Part shown: piece after piece, positions 38,922 to 50,826 of the stretch | Position numbering within the stretch: position 1 is the stretch's first letter | Layout of the letters: every line of letters starts with the position of its first letter | Assembly: GCA_020629515.1 (NCBI GenBank) | Contig: JAHDDE010000010.1 | Coordinates: 15,227 to 79,226, forward strand | Direction: 5' to 3' | DNA: 64,000 nucleotides | Origin: Saprospiraceae bacterium | Lineage (GTDB): Bacteria > Bacteroidota > Bacteroidia > Chitinophagales > Saprospiraceae | Translations under genes and position numbers: made by a program | Notes under the pieces: generated by a model | What the model was told of the DNA's origin: nothing | The model's input: only the letters and a program-made list of their open reading frames with translations | The model's database searches: none

Positions 38922-41279
38922 ATGACATTTAAAAGAATAATATCGATTATCATAGGAGGTATTTACTTTATCTCTCTGAGTGCTCAGGTAACCATTGGGA
39001 CTCCTGGACAGATAGAATGGGAGTATTGGCGAGAATTACCTGATGACAAGTTCGAAGAACTTTTTGCACGAGAAACCTATCCAGATAATCCAGATGGCAC
39101 ACAAATCTTATACTCTCTGAAGTCTCCATCCAATTTTGACAACCTATACGGTTCACGCATGACAGGATTCATTAGGATTGATCAGACAGAAAATGTCCAA
39201 TTTAACATTACTGGTGACAATAGAACTGAACTTTTTATAAGTACTGACCATACAAAAGAAAACCTGGATCTGGTAGCATCGATCGATGGTCATACAGGAT
39301 CTAATGAGCATGACAAATATGAATCTCAAACTACCTCAATGATCTCATTTTCTGGAGGTCAATATTATTACTTCGAGTTAATTCATGTTGAAGGAGGTGG
39401 TGGAGATCATTCTGCGGTATGGTGGAAAACCTCATTTACAGGTACCTCAGATTGGAATTATATTACAAGTGATTATCTATATCAGGCAATCGACAATTCT
39501 TTACCTTCTTGCCCATCGAGAGGAACATCGTGTGATGATAATAATAGTGCCACGATAGATGATAAAGAAGATGGATACTGCAACTGTATGGGAAGTCCTA
39601 TTGTCGATAATCCGTGTATCGGTGAAAGGCAGGAAATAAATTGGTATCAATATGAAAATATACCTGGAGGATCATTGAATGATCTATTAACCAATGAAAA
39701 CTTCCCTGGCATGCCCAATACTAGTACAAATTTGGAGTTTTTGGGCATATATAGCCAGTCCCGTCTAGATAGTATAGGTTCATTAATTGAAGGATATATC
39801 GTAGTACCACAAACAGGTTCATATGAATTCAATCTTACTGGGAATTCGAGAGCTCGATTTTTCTTGAGCAGTGATGATAATCCAGATAACAAAACGGCGC
39901 ATCAAATTTTAAATATAAACACAGTAGGCGCAACAGATCATGACAATGACTTATCTCAAAACATGAAAGTTGATCTTGAAAAAGATAGATATTACTATTT
40001 TGAGTTAACGCACAAAGAGAGTACAGGTTCAGAACACTTTGGGATATTTTGGAAAACGCCATTTGCCAATAATAACGACTGGAAACGAATACCTACTTTC
40101 TACCTATATGACTACAATTGTGAATTAGCTTGTATCAATGATGGTACGCCATGTGACGACGGCAATCCATATACTAACGATGATCAATACTCTAATTGCG
40201 AATGTACTGGCACCCCTTGTGAATCTACAGATTGTGATAACCCTTTAGCAAGCTATGACTACTATCCAGATTGCGGTATCACAGATCAACTTGATAATAG
40301 GTCTGACGCGTCTTGGTTAAGCTGTGCTCTAACCACATCACCCCATTCATCTAGAGGAGCTGGGCATTGGATTATGTATGATTTTGGAGAAATCTATCAA
40401 TTATATAATACTCAGATCTGGAATTATAATGCAGCAGGAGCCACCGAAAATGGATTTAATCAAGTCGTTATTGATTTATCCAATGATGGTCTGACATGGA
40501 CTCAATATGGAGATATTTATACCTGGGAGTTGGCTGATGGCAGTTCTGAGTACAGTGGTTTTCAAGGACCAAACTTTGAGGGACTTGGAGCAAGATTTGT
40601 TTTAATAACTTCCATTGATGATCCGAACACAAGTGGTTGTAGGGGAATTGGGAAAATCCTTTTTAACGCTGAAGCGTGCCCCTCCGAGGGTTCTTCATGT
40701 AATGATGGAGATTCTTTCACTGCTGGAGACATAATTATTGATTGTCAATGTCAGGGTGTTCTAACTATAGTAAATGATTGCGATGTTGATACACTTAATT
40801 TAGGCAGCAATTCTCTAGCGACGGACAATTACAGCGCCATACAGAAAGTTATTTCATCTAATACAATCAAAGAAAACAACCTCGTCAGTTTTGTTTCAGG
40901 CAAAAGTATAGAACTGGATTATGATTTTGAGGTCATGGAAGGAGCTAATTTTGTAGCCCAAATCTTAGATTGCGGAGAAATTTCTGCCCAAAATCAAATA
41001 AATAAAATACTCAAGTCTAAAACAGGTGTGTATCTGTCAATATCTCAACCTGAAAATGGCAATGAAATAATAATAGATTATCTAATACCATATGCAGGAT
41101 TCGCTCAACTCCGTATAATGGATTCTGAACAAAACAGCGTTAGAACGTTGTTCTCAGATAAGCTACTTAATCCAGGCTTTTATAGAAAGATCATCAAATC
41201 CACAAAATTAATCCCTGGGGAGTACTCGATAGAACTCTTAACAACGAAGGATGGCGCAACACAATTACTTCAAATTTAG
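38922..41279 (+). CDS. Exported protein with two PA14-like domains, discoidin-like domain and Cys-rich linkers
   Basis: The 785-residue protein has a signal peptide (1-21). Two PA14-like sugar-binding modules (about 25-195 and 235-400) share EINWYQYENIPGGSLNDL-like starts and RYYYFELTHKE segments. Cys-rich linkers of pattern GTPCDDGNPYTNDD/CxCxGTP occur at about 198-230, 403-435 and 585-615. A discoidin/F5-8-like domain covers 440-583 (GHWIMYDFGEIYQLYNTQIWNY). A three-element adhesin segment follows (about 640-690, KSIELDYDFEVMEGANFVAQILDC). The last 80 residues form a beta-sandwich resembling a T9SS type A tail, though weakly. The start is 2 bp after DUF1501, so it is co-transcribed. The 3' end overlaps the convergent channel gene by 15 bp. 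Confidence 0.85.
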   Translation: MTFKRIISIIIGGIYFISLSAQVTIGTPGQIEWEYWRELPDDKFEELFARETYPDNPDGTQILYSLKSPSNFDNLYGSRMTGFIRIDQTENVQFNITGDNRTELFISTDHTKENLDLVASIDGHTGSNEHDKYESQTTSMISFSGGQYYYFELIHVEGGGGDHSAVWWKTSFTGTSDWNYITSDYLYQAIDNSLPSCPSRGTSCDDNNSATIDDKEDGYCNCMGSPIVDNPCIGERQEINWYQYENIPGGSLNDLLTNENFPGMPNTSTNLEFLGIYSQSRLDSIGSLIEGYIVVPQTGSYEFNLTGNSRARFFLSSDDNPDNKTAHQILNINTVGATDHDNDLSQNMKVDLEKDRYYYFELTHKESTGSEHFGIFWKTPFANNNDWKRIPTFYLYDYNCELACINDGTPCDDGNPYTNDDQYSNCECTGTPCESTDCDNPLASYDYYPDCGITDQLDNRSDASWLSCALTTSPHSSRGAGHWIMYDFGEIYQLYNTQIWNYNAAGATENGFNQVVIDLSNDGLTWTQYGDIYTWELADGSSEYSGFQGPNFEGLGARFVLITSIDDPNTSGCRGIGKILFNAEACPSEGSSCNDGDSFTAGDIIIDCQCQGVLTIVNDCDVDTLNLGSNSLATDNYSAIQKVISSNTIKENNLVSFVSGKSIELDYDFEVMEGANFVAQILDCGEISAQNQINKILKSKTGVYLSISQPENGNEIIIDYLIPYAGFAQLRIMDSEQNSVRTLFSDKLLNPGFYRKIIKSTKLIPGEYSIELLTTKDGATQLLQI

Positions 41280-42779
41280 ATATCCAAAGATTTTATTCAT
41301 TATAATCTTCCTGGCGGATTGAATAGGAATATTGGAGCTATTCTTGGCTTCTTCTATGATTTTTGTCAATGAAGACTGATGAGACTCCAAGGCATCAAAT
41401 AGAGAGCCTAAAATTTTAGAATCTTTGGCTAATATTTTAGTGAATGATGCCTTATCGATCACTATAACTTCAGTATCCTCAGAGGCTCTAACTGTAGCTG
41501 TTCTCGGATCTCCTGTAAGTAAACTCATTTCTCCGAAAAAGTCCCCTACTTTCTTGTCAGCTACATATACATCAGTGTTATATGCTCCTTTTACCAAAAC
41601 CTTAGTCGATCCGCTAACTACAAAAAACATAGAATCCCCCTCTTCTCCTTGCGTCACCAAATTATCATTGGCTGCATATCTTTCTAACCTAGCACTCTCA
41701 GATAAGAGATCTAATTGAGATTCATCCAGTTCACTCAGCCAATCCTGTTCGGATAATTTTTCTTTTATATAATTCGATTTTTCCTCCTTTTTGCGCTTAT
41801 CCGATTCTGGGGACTCCAATTCCATATGAATCTCACTAATGGTATAAGGAATTTTAATCTTGTTTCTATCTAAAGTATACCACAGCCTTGTTAACACTAC
41901 ATCTTGTATAGCTATCACATTAGCATAATCTTCAATCCAATATTTAATACAATATCTAATCCCACTTGCCTCATAGCTCACCACAAATGGATAGGCTGTA
42001 CTATCAATGGATACTTCATCTATTTCATCCAGCAAGGCTGAAATAGTATTCTTTACGAAATTGGGTGGATGAGCATAGTCCAAATCAACATAAAAACTGT
42101 GAATCTGCCTTAAGGTGGGTCTTGAAAAGTTCACAATCTTTTCTTCAGCTACTGCCTTATTAGGTAAAAATATTCGGTGATTTTCTCTAGTGAGCAACGT
42201 AAGTGATCGCCAATTCTGACTGACCACTTTACCTTCATACCCTCCTAAATTAACCCAGTCATCTACATTGAATGGAGACTCCACTTGCAACGATAGACCT
42301 GCAAATAAATTAGTCAGAGTATCCTGTAGCGAAAGGCCAATAACCGCAGATAATACTGTCGAGGTCACTAATAAATGAGAAAGATTAGCGTTGAATATCA
42401 GCTTATAAGAGTATAATGATATACCAACTATAACCAATAAGGCAAAAATATTAAAAATAAATCTGGGCATCTTGACCAGATCATTCTTCCTAATTATTGT
42501 AAAAATGGACCAAAAAATGAACTGAATAATCGCATTTGACGCAAAAACTAAAATCAAAAGTTTTGTCCACTTTTGTATTGATGAAGGGTCTATCTGATTA
42601 TTGAATATGCTGCTTTGCATATCTCCCCATTTCCAAAGAATCAACGCAACAAGTAAAAATAGAAAAGCGGAAAATATAGTTTTGCGATCATATCTAACCT
42701 CATAACGCCTTTTCAAAAAAATAGATAGCGCTAAAACCAGTACCAAATAGATATTTGCGAAAAGCAAGACTCCGTTCAT
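41265..42779 (-). CDS. MscS-type mechanosensitive channel with C-terminal cyclic-nucleotide-binding domain
   Basis: The 504-residue membrane protein has about five N-terminal helices. Then come the MscS pore/beta domain (about 120-265: VTSTVLSAVIGLSLQDTLTNLFAGLSLQ, ESPFNVDDWVNLGGYEGKVVSQNWRS, LPNKAVAEEKIVNFSR) and a cNMP-binding domain (about 345-470) with the phosphate-binding cassette FGEMSLLTGDPRTATVRA. The Glu and Arg that contact the cyclic nucleotide are both present. Such fusions are cyclic-nucleotide-gated MscK/MscS-like channels. It overlaps the preceding gene's 3' end by 15 bp on the opposite strand. Confidence 0.9.
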   Translation of the reverse strand: MNGVLLFANIYLVLVLALSIFLKRRYEVRYDRKTIFSAFLFLLVALILWKWGDMQSSIFNNQIDPSSIQKWTKLLILVFASNAIIQFIFWSIFTIIRKNDLVKMPRFIFNIFALLVIVGISLYSYKLIFNANLSHLLVTSTVLSAVIGLSLQDTLTNLFAGLSLQVESPFNVDDWVNLGGYEGKVVSQNWRSLTLLTRENHRIFLPNKAVAEEKIVNFSRPTLRQIHSFYVDLDYAHPPNFVKNTISALLDEIDEVSIDSTAYPFVVSYEASGIRYCIKYWIEDYANVIAIQDVVLTRLWYTLDRNKIKIPYTISEIHMELESPESDKRKKEEKSNYIKEKLSEQDWLSELDESQLDLLSESARLERYAANDNLVTQGEEGDSMFFVVSGSTKVLVKGAYNTDVYVADKKVGDFFGEMSLLTGDPRTATVRASEDTEVIVIDKASFTKILAKDSKILGSLFDALESHQSSLTKIIEEAKNSSNIPIQSARKIIMNKIFGYLNLK

Positions 42780-42836: not shown

Positions 42837-44165
42837 TTAACCTTTAGTGATAGTATCCGCTATATCTTTATTGGCAGCTTGATAGGCCGGTATCAATGCA
42901 GAAATAATCCCGATCGCAAGAGCCGTTAGGAATAAATAAAATTCAGCTGTTAAGAATTGCCATCCACTGAACTCATAACGATATGTATCATCGAGAAACG
43001 AGCTAAAATAACCCATGCTAAAATGACTCAAAAACAAACCAATAATTGCTCCTATTATGGCGATGATAAGTCCTTCTAAAGTAATAAGTCCAAAAATCTT
43101 CATTCTACTGGCCCCCATACTCCTCATTAATGCCAATTCATACTGTCTTTCGTTGAGAGAACTATACAAGGATATAAAAACACTCAGTGCAGATACAATG
43201 ATTATCACAATCGCTAAAAGACGTAAGGCTCTCTCTGCACTATCCATCATCGAAAACAATCTATTGATCTCAATCGCTGGAGTAGCGGCTTGCATATTAG
43301 TATTCTCATTTATGCTCCTTTGCATGTTAAGAGCTTGAAAATTCCTTCCTCTAAATCTTATTAAAAGATTAGTAATCTCTTTATCATCTGCAGATGCGCG
43401 CAAATCAAATGGTTCATCATGATTGTGATGAACATCATGTTCGTGATCGTGATGATCATGATTGTGCTCTTCGTGATGATCATGATTGTGTTCATCTTGA
43501 TGATTATCACTAGTATCCTGGATATCTAAATGATCCTCGTGATCGTGAACTCTCCAAAATGTTCTATTTGTAGTTAGAATAAGTTGATCCAACACTGACC
43601 CCGTAGGTTGCAAAATTCCTTTTACAATAAAGCTTTGTACATCATCATGTTCTAAACCTTCGTCATCATTAAGTCCATGACTACTCTTAAAAGTATCTCC
43701 TATATTAATCCCTAAATCAGCAGCAACCTTAGCACCTACGGCAACTTCAAAGTCTTTCCCCCAAACTTCACCTTGATCAATCTGACCATTATACCATTCT
43801 AATATTTTAGTCGTAGTCCCAGCAATTCTGAATCCTTTATATGAATCACCCAGTGACAATGGTAGTGCGTCTTTAATAAGTGGATGTTTGGGATTGAGAA
43901 AGGGACGTATATCCCCTATAGAAATGTTGCCTGTGGGTGCATCAACATGATACATTGCACTCAGTATCATTTGTAGAGGACTTCCCTTGGCGCCGATTAC
44001 CAAATCTACTTCAGCCAAATTTTTTTCAAAATTGTCTTGAAGTTGCTTATCCATCAAGATTAAAAAAGAAATTAATCCAACTCCCAATGCGAATAAGATC
44101 AAGCTTAAGGTCAGACGCATCGGTTTATGCAACAAATTCTTCCAACTCAACTTCAGGATATTCAT
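42837..44165 (-). CDS. FtsX/MacB-type ABC permease with histidine-rich loop (candidate metal transporter)
   Basis: The 442-residue permease has one N-terminal helix (about 18-38), a large extracytoplasmic domain and three C-terminal helices (about 310-420), the FtsX-fold layout. Residues 207-249 contain 17 His among Asp, Glu and Asn, partly as an 8-residue tandem repeat (EHNHDHHE/EHNHDHHD). Such loops bind zinc or related metals. The gene overlaps its ATPase gene by 4 bp (ATGA). The MerC gene upstream and its dyads point to metal handling. Zrg-type zinc-uptake systems of Vibrio also pair an FtsX-like permease and an ATPase; equivalence is inference. Confidence 0.85.
   Translation of the reverse strand: MNILKLSWKNLLHKPMRLTLSLILFALGVGLISFLILMDKQLQDNFEKNLAEVDLVIGAKGSPLQMILSAMYHVDAPTGNISIGDIRPFLNPKHPLIKDALPLSLGDSYKGFRIAGTTTKILEWYNGQIDQGEVWGKDFEVAVGAKVAADLGINIGDTFKSSHGLNDDEGLEHDDVQSFIVKGILQPTGSVLDQLILTTNRTFWRVHDHEDHLDIQDTSDNHQDEHNHDHHEEHNHDHHDHEHDVHHNHDEPFDLRASADDKEITNLLIRFRGRNFQALNMQRSINENTNMQAATPAIEINRLFSMMDSAERALRLLAIVIIIVSALSVFISLYSSLNERQYELALMRSMGASRMKIFGLITLEGLIIAIIGAIIGLFLSHFSMGYFSSFLDDTYRYEFSGWQFLTAEFYLFLTALAIGIISALIPAYQAANKDIADTITKG
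43449..43496. repeat. 24-bp coding tandem repeat in the His-rich loop
   Basis: Two 24-bp units begin at 43449 and 43473 and share their first 19 bases (CGTGATGATCATGATTGTG). They encode EHNHDHHx twice on the minus strand. Replication slippage here could lengthen or shorten the loop in frame. Confidence 0.7.
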
Positions 44166-44785
44166 AACTCGATACGATTTATGAATTTATCCTTCAATCT
44201 CTGATCATGTGTTACCACTATTAACGTGGCCTCCACTTCATTCGCCTGTTCTATTAGCAGTTCAAATACTGCATTAGTGTTAGAATCATCAAGTGCTGAG
44301 GTCGGTTCATCTGCCAAAATAATAGCTGGATTATTTATTAATGCTCTGGCAATAGCAACCCTTTGCTGTTCTCCTTGACTTAGTTCATGACACTTTCTCT
44401 TAATCTTACCTTCTATATTTAATCGATCCAATAATTTTATGATCTTTTTAGAATCAACTCTTTGTCCGGCCAAAGATTGAGCAATAGCTAAATTTTCATA
44501 GACTGTTAGAGCTCTGATAAAATGGGACGTCTGAAAAATTAATCCAATTTTATCTCCTCTAAACTGATCCAATTCAGCATTACTTAAGTTTTTTAATGAC
44601 GTTCCGTCTATAGATATATCTCCTTTTTGGATGCTGCGAAGTCCACATAGTAATTGAAGTAATGTAGTCTTACCACACCCAGAGTCACCTAATAACAATG
44701 TATGATCTCCTTTTGAGCAATTAATATTAGGAAAGATAAGCGTCTGATCGGGATAACTATATGATATATTAGATGTAATCAGCAT
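44162..44785 (-). CDS. ABC transporter ATP-binding protein (LolD/MacB-like) partner of the His-rich permease
   Basis: The 207-residue ATPase has Walker A LLGDSGCGKTTLLQL, Q-loop LIFQTSHFIRALTVYENL, signature LSQGEQQRVAIARAL, Walker B AIILADEPTSALD and the H-loop VVTHD. The set is complete. The subfamily is that of FtsX-fold permeases (LolD, MacB, DevA). It overlaps the permease start by 4 bp and is 32 bp downstream of the MerC gene, so all three are likely one operon. Confidence 0.92.
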   Translation of the reverse strand: MLITSNISYSYPDQTLIFPNINCSKGDHTLLLGDSGCGKTTLLQLLCGLRSIQKGDISIDGTSLKNLSNAELDQFRGDKIGLIFQTSHFIRALTVYENLAIAQSLAGQRVDSKKIIKLLDRLNIEGKIKRKCHELSQGEQQRVAIARALINNPAIILADEPTSALDDSNTNAVFELLIEQANEVEATLIVVTHDQRLKDKFINRIEL

Positions 44786-44817
44786 TGAGAAACAAAATAG
44801 TCATTTAACTTATATTC

Positions 44818-45204
44818 TCATATGGATTCTGCTCTCACTTTATGCCTTAGCATTTTATGATTAGTTAAATGCGCGCATGCGACTATAAGTCCCCCCAAAG
44901 CCATGAGTATGTGTCCCTTAAGACCGTCTACGGTCAATCCAAAACAAATGATCATAATTCCTGCTAAAAAAAGAATTAGAGGCAATAGATTTGAGTGTTT
45001 TCTGATCCCTGATATAACAGCGATAATAGCAAGAAAAAAAGTTATTGATAACACAGATATTTCAAACAAATCATGAGATGACTCTAAGGCCATTCCTTCG
45101 GCTATACCGAAGGAAAGTAAAAAGGGTAAAGCCAAACAGTGAATGGCACAAAGACCAGATGTCAGCAACCCAAAAATATCTATATGCCTTCCGATTCTAT
45201 CCAT
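44818..45204 (-). CDS. MerC-domain membrane protein
   Basis: The 128-residue protein has four membrane helices and the MerC motif LCAIHCLALPFLLSFG near residues 18-33, with the Cys-x2-His-Cys pair (Cys19, His22, Cys23) that binds soft metals in MerC mercury transporters. A further His-containing tail (about 111-128) ends the protein. In Bacteroidota, MerC-domain proteins usually occur without other mer genes, and often near zinc-regulated genes, so a metal-uptake or sensing role is as plausible as mercury resistance. Two dyads overlap its promoter region. It is the first gene of the likely metal operon. Confidence 0.85.
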   Translation of the reverse strand: MDRIGRHIDIFGLLTSGLCAIHCLALPFLLSFGIAEGMALESSHDLFEISVLSITFFLAIIAVISGIRKHSNLLPLILFLAGIMIICFGLTVDGLKGHILMALGGLIVACAHLTNHKMLRHKVRAESI

Positions 45205-45211
45205 GTATTAC

Positions 45212-45267
45212 TTGCAACATTGATGCAAATATACCTATATGAACACCGTAAATGCAATATGGTTGCA
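45212..45267. promoter_or_regulatory. Two TGCAA/TTGCA dyads upstream of the MerC operon
   Basis: TTGCAACATTGATGCAA (45212-45228) is a near-perfect 17-bp palindrome, with one mismatched pair off centre. TGCAATATGGTTGCA (45253-45267) has perfect 5-bp arms around TATGG. Centres are 40 bp apart, and the first is 16 bp upstream of the MerC ATG. The size and symmetry fit a dimeric regulator such as a Fur/Zur-family repressor; that identity is inferred from the neighbours. Confidence 0.55.
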
Positions 45268-45271
45268 AATA

Positions 45272-46912
45272 TTAATTAGAATATCTAACCTTATACTTAC
45301 TGTATCCTTTAAGCACCTTTCCATTATCGTCTAAAGCAGAAACCAAGACTATATACTCGCTTACATCATCACTGTTATGATATTTGACCGATACACGTCC
45401 ATTAATTGAGTCAGGGTCTGGATTCCAATAAATCATTGAACGATATAGAGGCTCTGATGATAAGATGGTTTCTTCAGTAATATTAGGCACTTCCGTTGTA
45501 GGAAGAAATCCATTGAGCTCGACTATATCACTCTCCTCATTCTCTTCCAATAAAAAATTAGGATAAGAAGTAGTTATTATCGCATAGGCGCTTCCTCCAA
45601 AGGTCCCGAAGTCTCTTTTTATATCATCTTTCTTGTAATAAAGACCAACTGTCTCAATATTATCAAGTGGTAATCTCGCAATTTTATTCGCGTCCTTAGT
45701 GATCTTATCATCTATTATGAAAATAGGTTCTTTCTCAAAGTAACTACTCTCCTTACGATTTGAGTTTTTTCGATTCTTCGGATTATACATCCTCCCTTTG
45801 TAAGTACCATCCTCTTGTAAGACAAAGCTAAGCTCCGAAGAAAGAATTTCATTAAAAAAAGCGGCTACATTATCGAAGTTTTGATAATCACTAATCTTAT
45901 AAACACGATTAGGCTTTAGATCCTTTTTATTCATTCTTGTTTCTTCTGCTATTAATTCGTTTTCTACTTTACCATATTGCTGATATATTTTTTTGCGCAT
46001 TTGAGAAATGGCAATATAGTTCAATACAGTAGAGTCAATAGTTATTGGAGATTCTGCCGTTATTCCAATATTGACTACTTTCTTTACTTTAATATCCTCG
46101 TACTCATCAAACAGATAAGGGTTAAAATGAAACCTTTTCACACCTTTAAAAGGATCCAAATCCAATTTAAACCGGCCTGCAGCATCAGCTTTGCTGTAAA
46201 GCATATCATGGCATTTCATATCATATGCTCCTAATACATTAATCCTTAATTCGTCTCCAGACTCAGAAAACACTTGACCAGTAATATAAGGATTAGGATT
46301 CCAATTGATAACAGACTGGTCAATAGTACTCTGGACCGTTTTTACTTGTCCACCTATCTGATTATCAGTATAAAACTTGTTATCCACGACTACGATAGAA
46401 ACATTTGATAATGATTCGCCATCGAGGTTAATACTAACTTCTTCTCTCGGCTGATAGACCTTCTTGTCTAATGAAACTTTGATCTGTTCCTCTATGGCAA
46501 TCCCATCGATGGCCTCCTGAGAGAACTCCATTTGTCCGCCATTTATATCATTATATATAGGCACCTCTATATGAGCTAGTATACTCTCTACCCCATCTGA
46601 TCTATTCTGAGCTCCTAAGGCTAACAGGTAGTTATCAGAATTCCAAGAATAAGGTATTTGGAAATGACCTTTAATCATATTCTTAGAACCATTAGAGATA
46701 AAGTATTGCTTTTGGACATTGCCCTGGCTATCTGTCACATAATTATTGAATGCCACCTGCCTATTCGTATAAGATGATGGAAGCTTAACACTATACCAAA
46801 CTATATCTCCTGAAACATAAAATGGCTTGTCCAAATGAAAGGTATAGTCATTCTGCGAATAGCCAGCCGAAGCCAGTGCAACTAATAGACAAATAGAAAT
46901 AAAATTTTTCAT
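45272..46912 (-). CDS. Exported MG2-like protein of the TonB receptor/DUF4249 operon
   Basis: The 546-residue protein has a signal peptide (1-19, SAGYS-Q). Residues about 20-115 resemble an alpha-2-macroglobulin MG2 module (FHLDKPFYVSGDIVWYSVKLP). A second beta-sandwich block (about 150-260) has KKVYQPREEVSINLDG. Later residues lack a family I can name, but WNPNPYITGQVFSESGDEL resembles a carboxypeptidase-regulatory-like fold. It contains almost no Cys. It follows the DUF4249 gene by 9 bp. Homologous MG2-like proteins accompany TonB-dependent receptors in Bacteroidota; their job is unknown. It probably sits in the periplasm or on the outer membrane with the receptor. Confidence 0.78.
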   Translation of the reverse strand: MKNFISICLLVALASAGYSQNDYTFHLDKPFYVSGDIVWYSVKLPSSYTNRQVAFNNYVTDSQGNVQKQYFISNGSKNMIKGHFQIPYSWNSDNYLLALGAQNRSDGVESILAHIEVPIYNDINGGQMEFSQEAIDGIAIEEQIKVSLDKKVYQPREEVSINLDGESLSNVSIVVVDNKFYTDNQIGGQVKTVQSTIDQSVINWNPNPYITGQVFSESGDELRINVLGAYDMKCHDMLYSKADAAGRFKLDLDPFKGVKRFHFNPYLFDEYEDIKVKKVVNIGITAESPITIDSTVLNYIAISQMRKKIYQQYGKVENELIAEETRMNKKDLKPNRVYKISDYQNFDNVAAFFNEILSSELSFVLQEDGTYKGRMYNPKNRKNSNRKESSYFEKEPIFIIDDKITKDANKIARLPLDNIETVGLYYKKDDIKRDFGTFGGSAYAIITTSYPNFLLEENEESDIVELNGFLPTTEVPNITEETILSSEPLYRSMIYWNPDPDSINGRVSVKYHNSDDVSEYIVLVSALDDNGKVLKGYSKYKVRYSN

Positions 46913-46921
46913 AGTGCTAAT

Positions 46922-47986
46922 TTATTCTTCCCAATAATCTGGCTGTACTGTAGTACTTTGAGGCTCCGCCAAGCAGTCACAACAAATCCCAAACGGACAT
47001 CCAAATGGTGGTGGATTATTAACTACTGGTGGACAATAAGGAGTAACAGGCCCAGTAAATTCTTCTGTTACTCTGATTCTTTTTACATCCACAGATGTAG
47101 CAAAGAAAAATCCAAATACTCGATCGGAAGGGTCTGACGTATTAAATATATTAGTGGTTACCTCTCCTACAGGGTCGTCAAACATGTTACCTGTCCTTTC
47201 GGTGAGCGTTTTTACTTGTTGCCAATATTCAAAGGCTGCCTCACTTAATGAATATTGGTTAACCAAGTAATAAAGTCCTTCGCCAAATTTGAAATTAATA
47301 TCCGTTGTAAACAGTTCCAAATTATCTACTCTACCGACCGTTGATTCGCTTGGATCTAAAACTAAGACTTTGTCTCTTCCAACTGGCTCAGTGATATAGC
47401 AGGTTTTCATTTCTATCCTATCATCCGTTGGAGTATCGGTGATTTGATATACATTTTCTACTTCCCAAAGTATTCCTCCTTTCTTACTTATATCTATAGG
47501 CGTTGATATCCTTAATTGAAGTTTCTCCTCAGTTACATAGTTGTCAAGATTATCAATGACCAACTTATCTACAAAACCTAAAGACAAACTTTCTGATTGA
47601 ATCACTTCATCTAATACATCAAATTGAGATTCAAATACTCGATTGTCTAAAGTGATTACCTCAATTTTATAAGCATTACCTATTTCAGCTTGAATAGGAG
47701 AATTATTACCCAATGTTGCCCCGTATAATCCAACGTCAAGGCTTTCTAACTCCATTTCATTGTTATTATCATCAAAAAGTTTCACGCTTTTAACTACAAC
47801 TGCAGTACGACTATCTGTTGTGAAATCAAAAACATTAGAAACTGAAACTTCCACAAATGAAGTTTCTCCTCTGACAATGCGTCCTTGTATAGCCACGCTG
47901 TCTGTCAAGTCACCTGGTACCGTCAAATCAATCTCTTCGATACATGACATACAAAAGATTACCAGAATACCTATAATATATTTCAT
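46922..47986 (-). CDS. DUF4249 lipoprotein, receptor-linked
   Basis: From ATG 47986 the product has 354 residues with a lipoprotein signal (MKYIIGILVIFCMSC, Cys15). A longer frame from 48022 would overlap the receptor stop by 14 bp. DUF4249 signatures include IDLTVPGDLTDSVAIQGRIVRGETSFVEVSVSNVFDF and the C-terminal GICCDCLAEPQSTTVQPDYW. DUF4249 proteins are outer-membrane lipoproteins that usually accompany TonB-dependent receptors and probably cap or bind the cargo. It lies between the receptor and the MG2-like gene. Confidence 0.88.
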   Translation of the reverse strand: MKYIIGILVIFCMSCIEEIDLTVPGDLTDSVAIQGRIVRGETSFVEVSVSNVFDFTTDSRTAVVVKSVKLFDDNNNEMELESLDVGLYGATLGNNSPIQAEIGNAYKIEVITLDNRVFESQFDVLDEVIQSESLSLGFVDKLVIDNLDNYVTEEKLQLRISTPIDISKKGGILWEVENVYQITDTPTDDRIEMKTCYITEPVGRDKVLVLDPSESTVGRVDNLELFTTDINFKFGEGLYYLVNQYSLSEAAFEYWQQVKTLTERTGNMFDDPVGEVTTNIFNTSDPSDRVFGFFFATSVDVKRIRVTEEFTGPVTPYCPPVVNNPPPFGCPFGICCDCLAEPQSTTVQPDYWEE

Positions 47987-48008
47987 CTCTCTTATCATTA
48001 TTCTTCTA

Positions 48009-50708
48009 TTATAGTAATTCAAAATTGATAGTTAATGATGGGAAGACAGAGCCCAGAATAGATAACTTGTTAGCCTGAACCAAGTTGAAAGGTGCCTGAG
48101 TAAAGAAAACTGAGTAAGGATTCTTACGGCCTAACAAATTATATATAGAGAATGTCCAACTCGTCCTAAATTTTTGATCAACCTTATAACCTTGCCCTAA
48201 AGTATAAGACAAATCTACTCGAAAGTAATCAGGTATTCGGAGTGCATTTCTTTCAGAAAAAATAGGAACTATCAATCCTCCTGAGCTCCTATAATTGCCT
48301 ACTGGTGGAGTAGTAGGTCTCCCAGTAGAGTAATTGATATTAGCAGTAAGCGTGTTTCTTTGATTAGGATTATAATTAAATATCAAAGACACATCATGCG
48401 TTTTATCAAAATTAGAAGGATACCACTCTCCATCATTTATATCGGCTATTTGTCTTTCAGATTTAGCATATGTATAACTTAACCATCCGTTCATTATACC
48501 TTTATTCTTCTTAATGCTTAATTCAGCACCATATGCCCTACCTTCTCCATTGAGTAGTTCCGTTTCGATATGATCATTTATCAAGAGGTCTGCAAAATCC
48601 CTGTAATCATATAATTGATCAATTTTCCGCCCATACAACTCGAAGGAGGTCTCCCAAATATTATCGTTGAAGTTTTTAAAATATCCTATAGAGACATTAT
48701 GTGACTTCAATGGATCAATATAACGATTACTCAACTGCCACTGACTCGTTGGTGTTGGAGAATCTGCATTGAAGATTTGATTAATAAATTGAGAAGTACG
48801 ACTATATCCAGCTTTTAATGAGGTTTCATCAGTCAACTTTAATCTCATTGAGACTCTGGGCTCGAGAGCCGTGAACGATTTGATAGTTCCGGTTTTAAGC
48901 TCTGTCCCAGTTATTGTTTCAACTGACGGTTGTGATTCATCACTGTACTGATACTCCGTTTTAGGACCCAAATATTGGAAATAGGTAAATCGGGCTCCTC
49001 CAGAAACCTCTAACACATCCGTCAAAGCAAACTTCGCATTAGCATACACTGCTGACTCTCTTCCCTTTTCATCTTCTAAAATCTTAGGAGATATAGTAGA
49101 TAATTCACCTAACGGAGACCTATCTCCAGGGCCTATATCATAAGTTATAGATGATAAACCCACATTAAACTCAGTTACCTCGTTAGGGATATACTTAATG
49201 TTTTCCTTGATTTTGAGATAATCTACTGTTGTATTGATTGTAGAGGCATCTATACCATCAAAATCAGCTTGATTACTGTCATATCGACTTCCAACCACAG
49301 TGAACTTTGAAAAAATATTCTTCCCCAAAATAAGACCATAGCTTAACTCAGCGAATTGAGTTTGATAATCGAAACCAAATTCATCGTTATAGACAAAATC
49401 ATCTTTTGAACTATAACCAGATAAAGTTATGGAGTGATTGGCATTGGGTTTAGCAGTTATTCTAAAATTTCCATCATAGAAAAAAGAACTACTTTTTTGC
49501 AATTCAGGTTCTTGCATCAAACTCAGTAACCATCCAGTATATGATGATCTGAATCCACCTATAATAGACACCTTATCTTTAATAACAGGCCCTTCAAAAC
49601 TTACTTTACTAGAGATAGGACCGACTCCTCCTTTAATTTTAAAACTTTCAAAATTTCCGTCCTTCATCTCTACATCCATTACGGAGACCAAACGCCCCCC
49701 ATATTGGGCTGGAATGTTAGCTTTATATAAGTCAACTTTATTAATCAAATCAGAATTGAACGTAGAGAAGAAGCCTAAAGAGTGGGATGAATTAAATATG
49801 AAAGTCTCATCTTGCATGATCAAGTTTTGATCAACATTACCTCCTCTTACATTAAATCCAGAAGCTCCTTCACCTATCGAGCCTACTCCAGGCTGCAGCA
49901 AGAAACTTTTTATGACATCGACCTCACCCATGAAAGTGGGTAATTTCTTAATCGTGCTCATGTTGATAGATTGTACACCTATCTGCACGTTTTCAACACT
50001 TGCGTCAGCCGCTCGGGCGCTAATTGTTACTTCGTCTAACTCAATAGCCCCTTTATCAAGATCAACGTCTAAAGAACCGTCACTTCGAATCTCAAAAGCC
50101 TTGTAATTATCTTCATATCCTATGAAATTGATTACAATTTGGTGTTGCCCTGCCGGCAGATTGATCTCATAGCTGCCATCAAAGTCGGTAGCTGTACCTA
50201 TATCCGTGTCGGTCACAGATATGGTTGCGCCAATAATAGGCTCTCCAGTTTGGGCGTCCCTGACTATACCATTTAATGTACCCATCCCATCGGCTCCAAG
50301 CTGATTGAAGGACCCAATCACCATTGAGTTCTCATCTTGCTCATCTTGTCCACTCAAGGCACTATAAAACTCAGCACTATATTCTTGTTCTAAAATTGTC
50401 TTATCCAATACTACAAATCCATACCCTCTATACTCTACAAAATCATAAAACGTGTTCTCCAATAAAGCAGATAATGCCGACGAGAGGTCCTGTTTATCAA
50501 CAGAAATAGATTTATTCAATTTAATGGTCGGATCTACTTTGTAGAATATCTTGATAGGTGTTGAATTATCAAGGGACTCAAGAGCATCTGCTAAAAGGCC
50601 TGCTTGAACAGTAATCGTCTCTGATTTCTTATCTTCTTGAGCCTTTAAATCGTTAAAAATAAAGGAAGTCAATATACAAAGGATGAATACGGAATTAAGA
50701 TTTTTCAT
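48009..50708 (-). CDS. TonB-dependent receptor with STN and carboxypeptidase-like N-domains
   Basis: From ATG 50708 the product has 899 residues; the longer frame from 50729 adds seven residues. A signal peptide (to about 23) is followed by an STN domain (about 30-100: ITVQAGLLADALESLDNSTPIKIFY). Then come a carboxypeptidase-regulatory-like domain (about 142-225, GTLNGIVRDAQTGEPIIGATISVTDTDIGTATDFDGSYEI), a plug domain (about 240-350) and a 22-strand-type barrel to a terminal FPSLTINFELL (aromatic-rich end typical of outer-membrane barrels). The STN domain suggests possible regulation by an anti-sigma factor elsewhere. The substrate is unknown. It heads the operon with DUF4249 and MG2-like genes. 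Confidence 0.92.
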   Translation of the reverse strand: MKNLNSVFILCILTSFIFNDLKAQEDKKSETITVQAGLLADALESLDNSTPIKIFYKVDPTIKLNKSISVDKQDLSSALSALLENTFYDFVEYRGYGFVVLDKTILEQEYSAEFYSALSGQDEQDENSMVIGSFNQLGADGMGTLNGIVRDAQTGEPIIGATISVTDTDIGTATDFDGSYEINLPAGQHQIVINFIGYEDNYKAFEIRSDGSLDVDLDKGAIELDEVTISARAADASVENVQIGVQSINMSTIKKLPTFMGEVDVIKSFLLQPGVGSIGEGASGFNVRGGNVDQNLIMQDETFIFNSSHSLGFFSTFNSDLINKVDLYKANIPAQYGGRLVSVMDVEMKDGNFESFKIKGGVGPISSKVSFEGPVIKDKVSIIGGFRSSYTGWLLSLMQEPELQKSSSFFYDGNFRITAKPNANHSITLSGYSSKDDFVYNDEFGFDYQTQFAELSYGLILGKNIFSKFTVVGSRYDSNQADFDGIDASTINTTVDYLKIKENIKYIPNEVTEFNVGLSSITYDIGPGDRSPLGELSTISPKILEDEKGRESAVYANAKFALTDVLEVSGGARFTYFQYLGPKTEYQYSDESQPSVETITGTELKTGTIKSFTALEPRVSMRLKLTDETSLKAGYSRTSQFINQIFNADSPTPTSQWQLSNRYIDPLKSHNVSIGYFKNFNDNIWETSFELYGRKIDQLYDYRDFADLLINDHIETELLNGEGRAYGAELSIKKNKGIMNGWLSYTYAKSERQIADINDGEWYPSNFDKTHDVSLIFNYNPNQRNTLTANINYSTGRPTTPPVGNYRSSGGLIVPIFSERNALRIPDYFRVDLSYTLGQGYKVDQKFRTSWTFSIYNLLGRKNPYSVFFTQAPFNLVQANKLSILGSVFPSLTINFELL

Positions 50709-50826
50709 AATTTCAATTGAACAGCACAATAGTACTTAAAATAAATTATTTTGAGATTGAAGAGCGATGCTTATTCGACAAGCGTTAATATATAAATGTC
50801 ATCCTCAAACGTTATTATTACAGTAT

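Follow-up and report, generated by a model that had tools for sequence, protein, structure and literature searches.

Why would a member of the Bacteroidota place merC, a gene known from mercury resistance, at the head of an ATP-binding cassette (ABC) transporter operon whose permease carries a dense run of histidines? The operon lies on the minus strand of a stretch of 64,000 nucleotides (64 kb) from a Saprospiraceae bacterium, called the window throughout, and encodes MerC, an ABC ATPase and an FtsX-type permease. A sequence-only reading had seen in it a metal-responsive unit, for zinc acquisition or metal export, built on an FtsX-type transporter rather than on ZnuABC. The comparative evidence supports a metal-responsive unit that probably serves zinc acquisition, since dyads precede nine of ten related clusters with merC or zur and since three Pedobacter loci hold merC, the ABC pair and a Zur relative behind such a dyad. 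Thus a real operon, probably zinc-regulated and related to the Zrg-type ABC group, is well supported by sequence comparison; it lacks ZrgA, has a His-rich loop on the permease and is led by merC. The earlier reading is refined in that the ABC pair belongs to an already known type (Zrg/PA4063-4066), the gene of the predicted regulator lies elsewhere in the genome, in some relatives the dyad stands before zinc exporters as well, and metallophore export is a rival explanation.

Tandem dyads over the merC promoter

The gap of 67 nt upstream of merC is occupied by the two TGCAA/TTGCA dyads that had been noticed there, 40 bp from one another and each with one mismatch to TTGCAAYNNNRTTGCAA. This pattern matched five times in the window at up to two mismatches, compared to 1.44 ± 1.10 in shuffled sequence, and the two dyads were its only one-mismatch matches. 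Across the 3.9-Mb genome, TTGCAACNNNGTTGCAA at up to two mismatches gave nine sites, four of which form two tandem pairs, one at the merC promoter and one at C87:12281/12305. At up to three mismatches the pattern was barely above its control (105 versus 90 sites), and weak sites were therefore ignored and only the best sites taken as meaningful. By these counts the dyads are not chance, and a sister genome (G042) has both of them at the corresponding place, again 40 bp apart. Paired dyads are spaced by 40 bp in the window, the sister genome and L096, by 39 bp in G029 and by 24 bp at C87. A third exact TGCAAN5TTGCA place (C41), in a metabolic-looking cluster, was set aside as chance.

The sequence-only reading had proposed a search for the dyad upstream of other zinc genes of this genome. 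The C87 pair precedes a lipoprotein-like gene (named by eye, without a Pfam match) and the gene for a TonB receptor of 774 amino acids (aa); for this receptor, NCBIfam matched best to heme/hemoglobin receptor and ZnuD classes, with no match above cut-off. No dyad was found at the genome's single ZnuA-type gene, which lies away from the operon and adjoins the gene of a 222-aa protein that we take to be DtxR/MntR-like; because of this neighbour and the missing dyad, the ZnuA-type system may be of manganese type. A PF11736 profile search, in which no control matched, had suggested that DUF3299 is absent from the genome; this was overturned by a direct protein search, which returned two DUF3299-like genes, both unlinked to the operon and neither with a dyad.

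Bacteroidota promoters have the -7 consensus TAnnTTTG. On the minus strand, TATATTTG at 45233-45226 fits this element and a TTG lies 21 nt further upstream; dyad 1 overlaps the end of the -7-type element and dyad 2 covers the TTG. Similarly, TANNTTTG was present in 16 of the 20 dyad promoters displayed, often touching the dyad (in L149 it lies far from it), compared to 6.5% (492/7,600) of random 135-nt stretches of the same loci, a figure below the true background since intergenic DNA is richer in A+T. With the dyads over the predicted core promoter, the layout suits a repressor.

Dyads accompany merC and zur in related clusters

We compared loci with a homologous permease, 119 of which were entered and 92 used, those with a duplicate permease segment, no ATPase found or less than 120 nt of upstream sequence being dropped; a dyad was counted if it lay within 250 nt upstream of the cluster's first gene with at most two mismatches. 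In the search for permease relatives with an alignment as query, the best 80 of 585 matches were kept. A dyad was found in 9 of 10 clusters with merC or a zur relative versus 2 of 82 with neither (Fisher p = 6e-10, in a test that ignores relatedness), and the sole miss among the former (L208) has a three-mismatch site at -43. With a background of 31 sites in 983 kb, 0.8 upstream sites were expected and 15 found. The dyads are thus present upstream of homologous operons, where their absence would have counted against the sequence-only reading, though they are absent in the 80 remaining clusters that have neither merC nor zur.

Searched for on its own, merC was found in 103 of 296 Bacteroidota genomes. 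Among the best 30 merC loci, eight have a dyad (at most two mismatches) at the merC start, including all six of these 30 that come from other families of the window's order, and eight have a Zur relative within ~1.5 kb. In G029, a dyad stands before a stand-alone merC and another before a receptor cluster beside the ABC pair.

When eight relatives were searched with the dyad pattern at up to one mismatch, 51 places were found versus 9 for the backward control. Eleven stretches around such places were fetched, selected by eye and hence non-random, and metal genes were seen in four of them (L190, L191, L192 and L194). Dyads preceding ZntA-like genes lie at L191 3371-3387, L192 3319-3335 and L194 3509-3525 (the ATPase of L192 was itself not scanned), and the Pedobacter ZntA-like genes with a dyad have a Zur relative and, by eye, czc-type genes alongside. 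Two Pedobacter genomes also have dyads (L197 3609-3625, L201 3501-3560) in front of a gene whose product of 302/317 aa looks like an oxidoreductase by eye, possibly a further regulon member.

A Zur encoded outside the window

No Zur gene had been seen in the window, and this stands: the genome has two Fur-family genes, on contigs C12 and C81, and the window lies on C80. The C81 protein, of 137 aa with the His-rich stretch HHHHDQHAHFHCQKC, is by sequence the genome's Zur, and the regulator is thus predicted to be encoded outside the window. We tested 17 Bacteroidota regulators encoded next to merC, to the ABC pair or to a ZntA-like gene; of these, 16 match the C81 Zur better (31-46% identity) than the genome's other Fur-family paralogue (L019); the 17th (L211) matches neither well. 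The regulator of a Phaeobacter operon (L173) matched neither protein in that search and gave a weak pairwise match elsewhere. In three Pedobacter loci, merC, ATPase, permease and a Zur relative form one cluster behind a dyad, with DUF3299 near in all three by tblastn and called as an open reading frame (ORF) in two. The dyads, conserved and tied to the presence of merC or zur, are predicted Zur sites at which Zur may act as a repressor.

An ABC pair related to that of ZrgA operons

Pfam assigned the first product of the operon to MerC (PF03203, 72.3 bits against a cut-off of 27.6), the ATPase to ABC_tran (PF00005, 119 bits) and the permease to FtsX (PF02687, 60 bits), the latter two also above cut-off. 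The CAIHC metal motif attributed to MerC is present, at residues 19-23. The translation of the ATPase shows Walker A (GDSGCGKTT), signature (SQGEQ), Walker B (IILADEPT) and H-loop (VVTHD) motifs, and its best NCBIfam models are LolD, DevA and FtsE, all under their cut-offs; for the permease, LolCE-, ADOP- and FtsX-type models matched below cut-off only.

An AlphaFold2 model of the permease, built on an alignment of 30 sequences, reached a mean pLDDT (predicted local distance difference test) of 84.1, and its only long stretches below 50 lie in the His loop (residues 210-227 and 229-248). Its fold matches, whose root-mean-square deviations (rmsd) are large and not to be over-read, include 5xu1_M (Z 24.0, rmsd 7.4 Å, 351 residues aligned), LolE 9rld_E (Z 23.0, 8.7 Å, 358), the HrtB heme exporter 7w7a_J (Z 19.4, 6.7 Å, 326), MacB 5gko_A (Z 19.2, 4.5 Å, 354) and also FtsX. 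The model identifies the permease as a type VII ABC protein of FtsX-type fold with a large extracytoplasmic domain after the first membrane helix. By analogy with LolE and MacB, the domain bearing the His loop, between the first and later predicted membrane helices, would be periplasmic.

The permease is conserved at the family level (match at E <1e-50 in 54 of 61 genomes), and 16 of 39 family loci have a DUF3299-type gene in its vicinity; this assignment was made via two scanned members, of which one passed the Pfam cut-off and the other fell just short of it. Locus L059 yielded no permease ORF. The window permease aligns over its whole length with the permease of a ZrgA operon on a Phaeobacter plasmid (27% identity), with a gap at the His loop. 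The Phaeobacter operon has the order Fur-ZrgA-ATPase-permease-DUF3299; ZrgA-ATPase-permease-DUF3299 recurs in plasmid records of Sulfitobacter, P. aeruginosa, Rhodobacteraceae SC52 and Pseudooceanicola, and Aeromonas has the same order by ORFs. One ZrgA/DUF3299 operon with a homologous ABC pair adjoins genes annotated as zinc ABC binding protein and GTP-binding proteins. By sequence, then, the ABC pair and that of ZrgA operons (Vibrio Zrg, Pseudomonas PA4063-4066) are homologs. The same pair is linked to merC in the sister genome (L052/L092), in L105, in Pedobacter L159, L167 and L170, and in L208.

Plasmids of Paracoccus, two Deinococcus species, Qingshengfaniella, Ensifer and Cereibacter (L238, L241, L242, L243, L245 and L251) carry a sister subfamily of the pair, preceded by a gene annotated as alkaline phosphatase and by one for a small protein; the small protein is DUF3299-like by eye in the five that were translated, and in L242 the permease is directly followed by an IS6 transposase gene. 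In the gammaproteobacterium Catenovulum (L248 1361-4649), MerC stands beside DUF3299, ATPase and permease, with a His-poor loop and no ZrgA in the stretch shown.

The permease loop and a candidate metal site

The 17 histidines counted earlier in 43 permease residues were found again, compared to 6 in the other 399 residues. Among 106 distinct Bacteroidota permeases, 91 have at least 5 histidines in the loop (median 10), with exactly 4 in another 7 and at most 3 in the remaining 8. By contrast, in each of the six ZrgA-linked permeases examined the loop is short and holds one or two. ZrgA itself (PF10986) was above cut-off in none of 296 Bacteroidota genomes, with four weak matches, and had no match in the window's own genome; the PF10986 profile matched five of five positive-control records, and none of the 14 named control genomes gave a match in the 296-genome search. 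In two alphaproteobacteria, Ruegeria and Alisedimentitalea (L244 and L249), the place of ZrgA is taken by a MacA-like (biotin/lipoyl-binding) gene and the permease loop is rich in histidine, with 16 residues in one and 14 in the other; the Paracoccus loop also has 14. Proteobacteria were sampled through plasmid records only, and L239 and L240 (unannotated plasmid loci) and L242 were left out of the loop count. No ZrgA-linked permease has the loop, yet ZrgA-free ones may be His-poor, so the trade-off is one-way in this sample.

His163 and His207, the latter being the first loop residue, were found in all 120 aligned permeases (106 from Bacteroidota, 14 others) and His173 in 119, with Asp107 and Asp193 likewise in 120 of 120. 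In the best-matching LolF chains, no histidine stands at the position aligned, weakly, to the conserved HG of His163. We consider His163, His173 and His207 a candidate structured zinc site.

Features and neighbourhood of the operon

The tight order of three genes (Table 1) holds in the ORF list, with 32 nt between merC and the ATPase gene and a 4-nt overlap of the ATPase and permease genes on the minus strand.

Table 1. Positions of the operon, its predicted regulatory sites and adjoining genes in the window
Feature	Position	Strand	Description
merC	45204-44818	-	128 aa, first operon gene; MerC-family membrane protein
ABC ATPase	44785-44162	-	207 aa, LolD/DevA/FtsE type, ZrgC/PA4064-like
FtsX-type (type VII ABC) permease	44165-42837	-	442 aa, ZrgB/PA4065-like
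His-rich loop of permease	43419-43547	-	residues 207-249, 17 His in 43; predicted disordered
Dyad 1, TTGCATCAATGTTGCAA	45212-45228	-	predicted Zur site
Dyad 2, TTGCAACCATATTGCAT	45252-45268	-	predicted Zur site
MscS-type channel fused to cyclic-nucleotide-binding domain	41265-42779	-	57 nt 3' of permease gene
Three genes 5' of merC	45272-50729	-	products of 906, 366 and 546 aa; the 906-aa one TonB-receptor-like by eye

The gene of the MscS-type channel occupies the same place in the sister genome and could be co-transcribed with the permease gene. A terminator scan was no better than shuffles (2 terminator-like sites versus 1.9) and hence gives no evidence of a terminator parting the two; the sigma-70 scan gave 24 promoter-like sites versus 21.7 in shuffles. 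The three genes 5' of merC, separated from it by the same 67 nt, keep their order in the sister genome. Pfam scans of five neighbourhood proteins showed neither a merR/merA-type regulator or reductase, for which the rest of the window and genome was not searched, nor a MacA-, LolA- or EnvC-like protein, the genome not having been searched for MacA.

A proposed mechanism and its rivals

We place somewhat better than even weight on a Zur-repressed zinc-acquisition operon whose permease took over the capture role of ZrgA, with MerC as the entry through the inner membrane. When cytoplasmic zinc is plentiful, the C81 Zur would bind the two dyads and so cover the merC promoter in its -7/-33 region; under zinc starvation this promoter would be freed, such that merC, ATPase and permease are made together, and the second dyad pair would control the lipoprotein/TonB-receptor operon bringing zinc through the outer membrane. 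That zinc starvation releases Zur and co-produces the operon and the outer-membrane receptor is a strong prediction, and the operon is probably switched on in this way. The His-rich loop would gather periplasmic zinc and pass it to the candidate structured His163/His173/His207 site, and ATP hydrolysis would drive a type VII (LolCDE/MacB-like) conformational stroke that hands the zinc on. MerC is the inner-membrane route for Hg(II) in mer systems and would be the likeliest route for zinc across the same membrane. Capture, ascribed to ZrgA in proteobacteria, would here be carried by the permease. Loop-to-motor hand-on and entry via MerC, and with them the identity of the metal, the direction of transport and the role of MerC, we infer from sequence relationships. 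A bolder version, which we regard as doubtful, is that a type VII ABC machine captures zinc via the His loop and the invariant His site and pushes it into MerC, such that an ABC motor and a non-ABC pore would share the work of import and the zinc-binding Zrg subunit would be replaced in Bacteroidota by the permease loop.

Several observations weigh against the zinc-acquisition reading. We know of no type VII ABC transporter that carries its substrate inward. The compared loci are related, so the Fisher p is not an independent-sample probability, and 80 of the 92 related clusters have neither dyad nor merC/zur, such that dyad control is a property of a subset. No metal gene was seen in four of the eleven fetched dyad stretches (L195, L196, L198 and L202), and the case is unclear in three (L193, L197 and L201). 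Genes of ZntA-like zinc exporters, too, stand behind the dyad in one Dysgonomonas and two Pedobacter genomes, and the site thus marks zinc homeostasis, not by itself uptake. The loop has at most 3 histidines in 8 of the 106 Bacteroidota permeases; Catenovulum (with merC), D. radiodurans, Qingshengfaniella, Ensifer and Cereibacter show no ZrgA in the stretch fetched and have a His-poor loop as well, and the trade-off between loop and ZrgA is confounded by phylogeny. Finally, the homologous PA4063-PA4066 of Pseudomonas has been interpreted, from mutant phenotypes, as a MacB-type exporter of a pyochelin-cobalt complex (PMC11481552; like the other papers cited, represented here by part of its text).

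This last interpretation leads to the main rival, an unlikely one in our estimate, in which the operon encodes an exporter of the MacB type and is induced when zinc is short: a metallophore or metal complex would be pumped out by the ABC pair, and MerC would do a separate job. The resemblance of the model to MacB 5gko_A and to the heme exporter HrtB 7w7a_J speaks for it, as do the MacA-like gene beside the pair in Ruegeria and Alisedimentitalea and the PA4065 mutants reported to support pyochelin-cobalt export (PMC11481552). On the other hand, no MacA-like protein was among the five neighbourhood proteins scanned, the partners of the pair are MerC and, by shared dyad, a TonB receptor, and a His-rich loop fits metal handling better than export of a bulky chelate; moreover, the Vibrio zrg genes matter for growth under zinc limitation, according to the available parts of PMC9820375 and PMC9817125.

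We give less credence to a metal-resistance unit, with merC and the ABC pair removing or detoxifying zinc, mercury or similar and being induced by excess. MerC does belong to the mer-operon family, dyads stand before ZntA-like P-type ATPases in Dysgonomonas and in two Pedobacter genomes (there with a Zur relative and, by eye, czc-type genes), and Zur can activate export genes in Streptomyces. Yet dyads over the core promoter are the geometry of a repressor, the second dyad operon of this genome includes a TonB receptor, pointing to uptake, and the homologous Vibrio and Pseudomonas operons are reportedly induced by zinc deficiency (PMC9817125 and PMC11481552, in part). We deem it improbable that the pair is a periplasmic zinc chaperone machine that loads or unloads zinc on extracytoplasmic proteins while nothing crosses the inner membrane. 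The type VII fold is indeed common to LolCDE and FtsEX, which act on periplasmic substrates, the sister subfamily sits behind an alkaline phosphatase gene (as annotated) and a small protein DUF3299-like by eye, and in 82 of the 92 Bacteroidota clusters the pair stands without merC or a zur relative beside it, but in this clade the pair is linked to merC, which points to import.

Little seems to be charted of zinc control in Bacteroidota: the literature found, in the parts at hand, gave no Zur site or regulon for the phylum, and within the open-licence literature we found no publication that connects MerC with Zur or describes a Zur box of Bacteroidota. A Zur site is predicted here, together with a candidate regulon of few members (merC-ABC, TonB receptor, stand-alone merC and ZntA), and both can be tested in culturable Pedobacter or Dysgonomonas relatives. 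The operon also bears on the dispute over whether the Zrg/PA4064-4065 pair imports zinc or exports a chelate; in a permease that has its own His loop and an invariant His triad, point mutations can put direct metal handling to the test. If the zinc-acquisition reading is true, MerC would gain a physiological role in zinc supply.

Comparison with known systems

A ZnuABC-type assignment of the operon was rejected, as the permease is of the FtsX type, not ABC-3, and the ZnuA-type gene lies elsewhere in the genome. With mer mercury-resistance operons it shares a MerC of PF03203 with the CAIHC motif; here, by contrast, merC sits with Zur-type sites and zinc-type genes. Among type VII ABC systems (MacB, LolCDE and FtsEX), the permease shares the fold and the ATPase the class; it differs from them in its His loop and invariant His163/173/207, and from MacB/MacAB-TolC in that ATPase and permease are encoded by two separate genes.

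The closest likeness is to the ZrgABCDE system of Vibrio cholerae and V. parahaemolyticus (PMC9820375 and PMC9817125, in part), compared here via the ZrgA operons of Aeromonas, Phaeobacter and Pseudomonas, not via the Vibrio sequences. The systems have in common an ATPase and an FtsX/MacB-like permease with a large periplasmic domain; Zur control is reported there, and relatives of the window operon have a DUF3299 gene close to the pair. PA4063-PA4066 of Pseudomonas aeruginosa (PMC11481552 and PMC8561739, in part) likewise has the same ABC pair, compared through a P. aeruginosa plasmid copy, and a DUF3299 gene; its PA4063 is a ZrgA homolog with His-rich stretches and has been treated as a possible periplasmic chaperone (PMC8561739). 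Unlike both, the window has no linked DUF3299 gene (ZrgE/PA4066), the two copies in the genome being unlinked. The loop of the plasmid-copy permease has 2 histidines versus 17 here, and no merC is in the stretch shown; compared to ZrgABCDE, the window operon is without ZrgA, carries the His loop on the permease and has merC as its lead gene. What is known, therefore, is the type of the ABC pair, and what appears from sequence to be new is a ZrgA-free variant with a His loop on the permease and merC in the lead.

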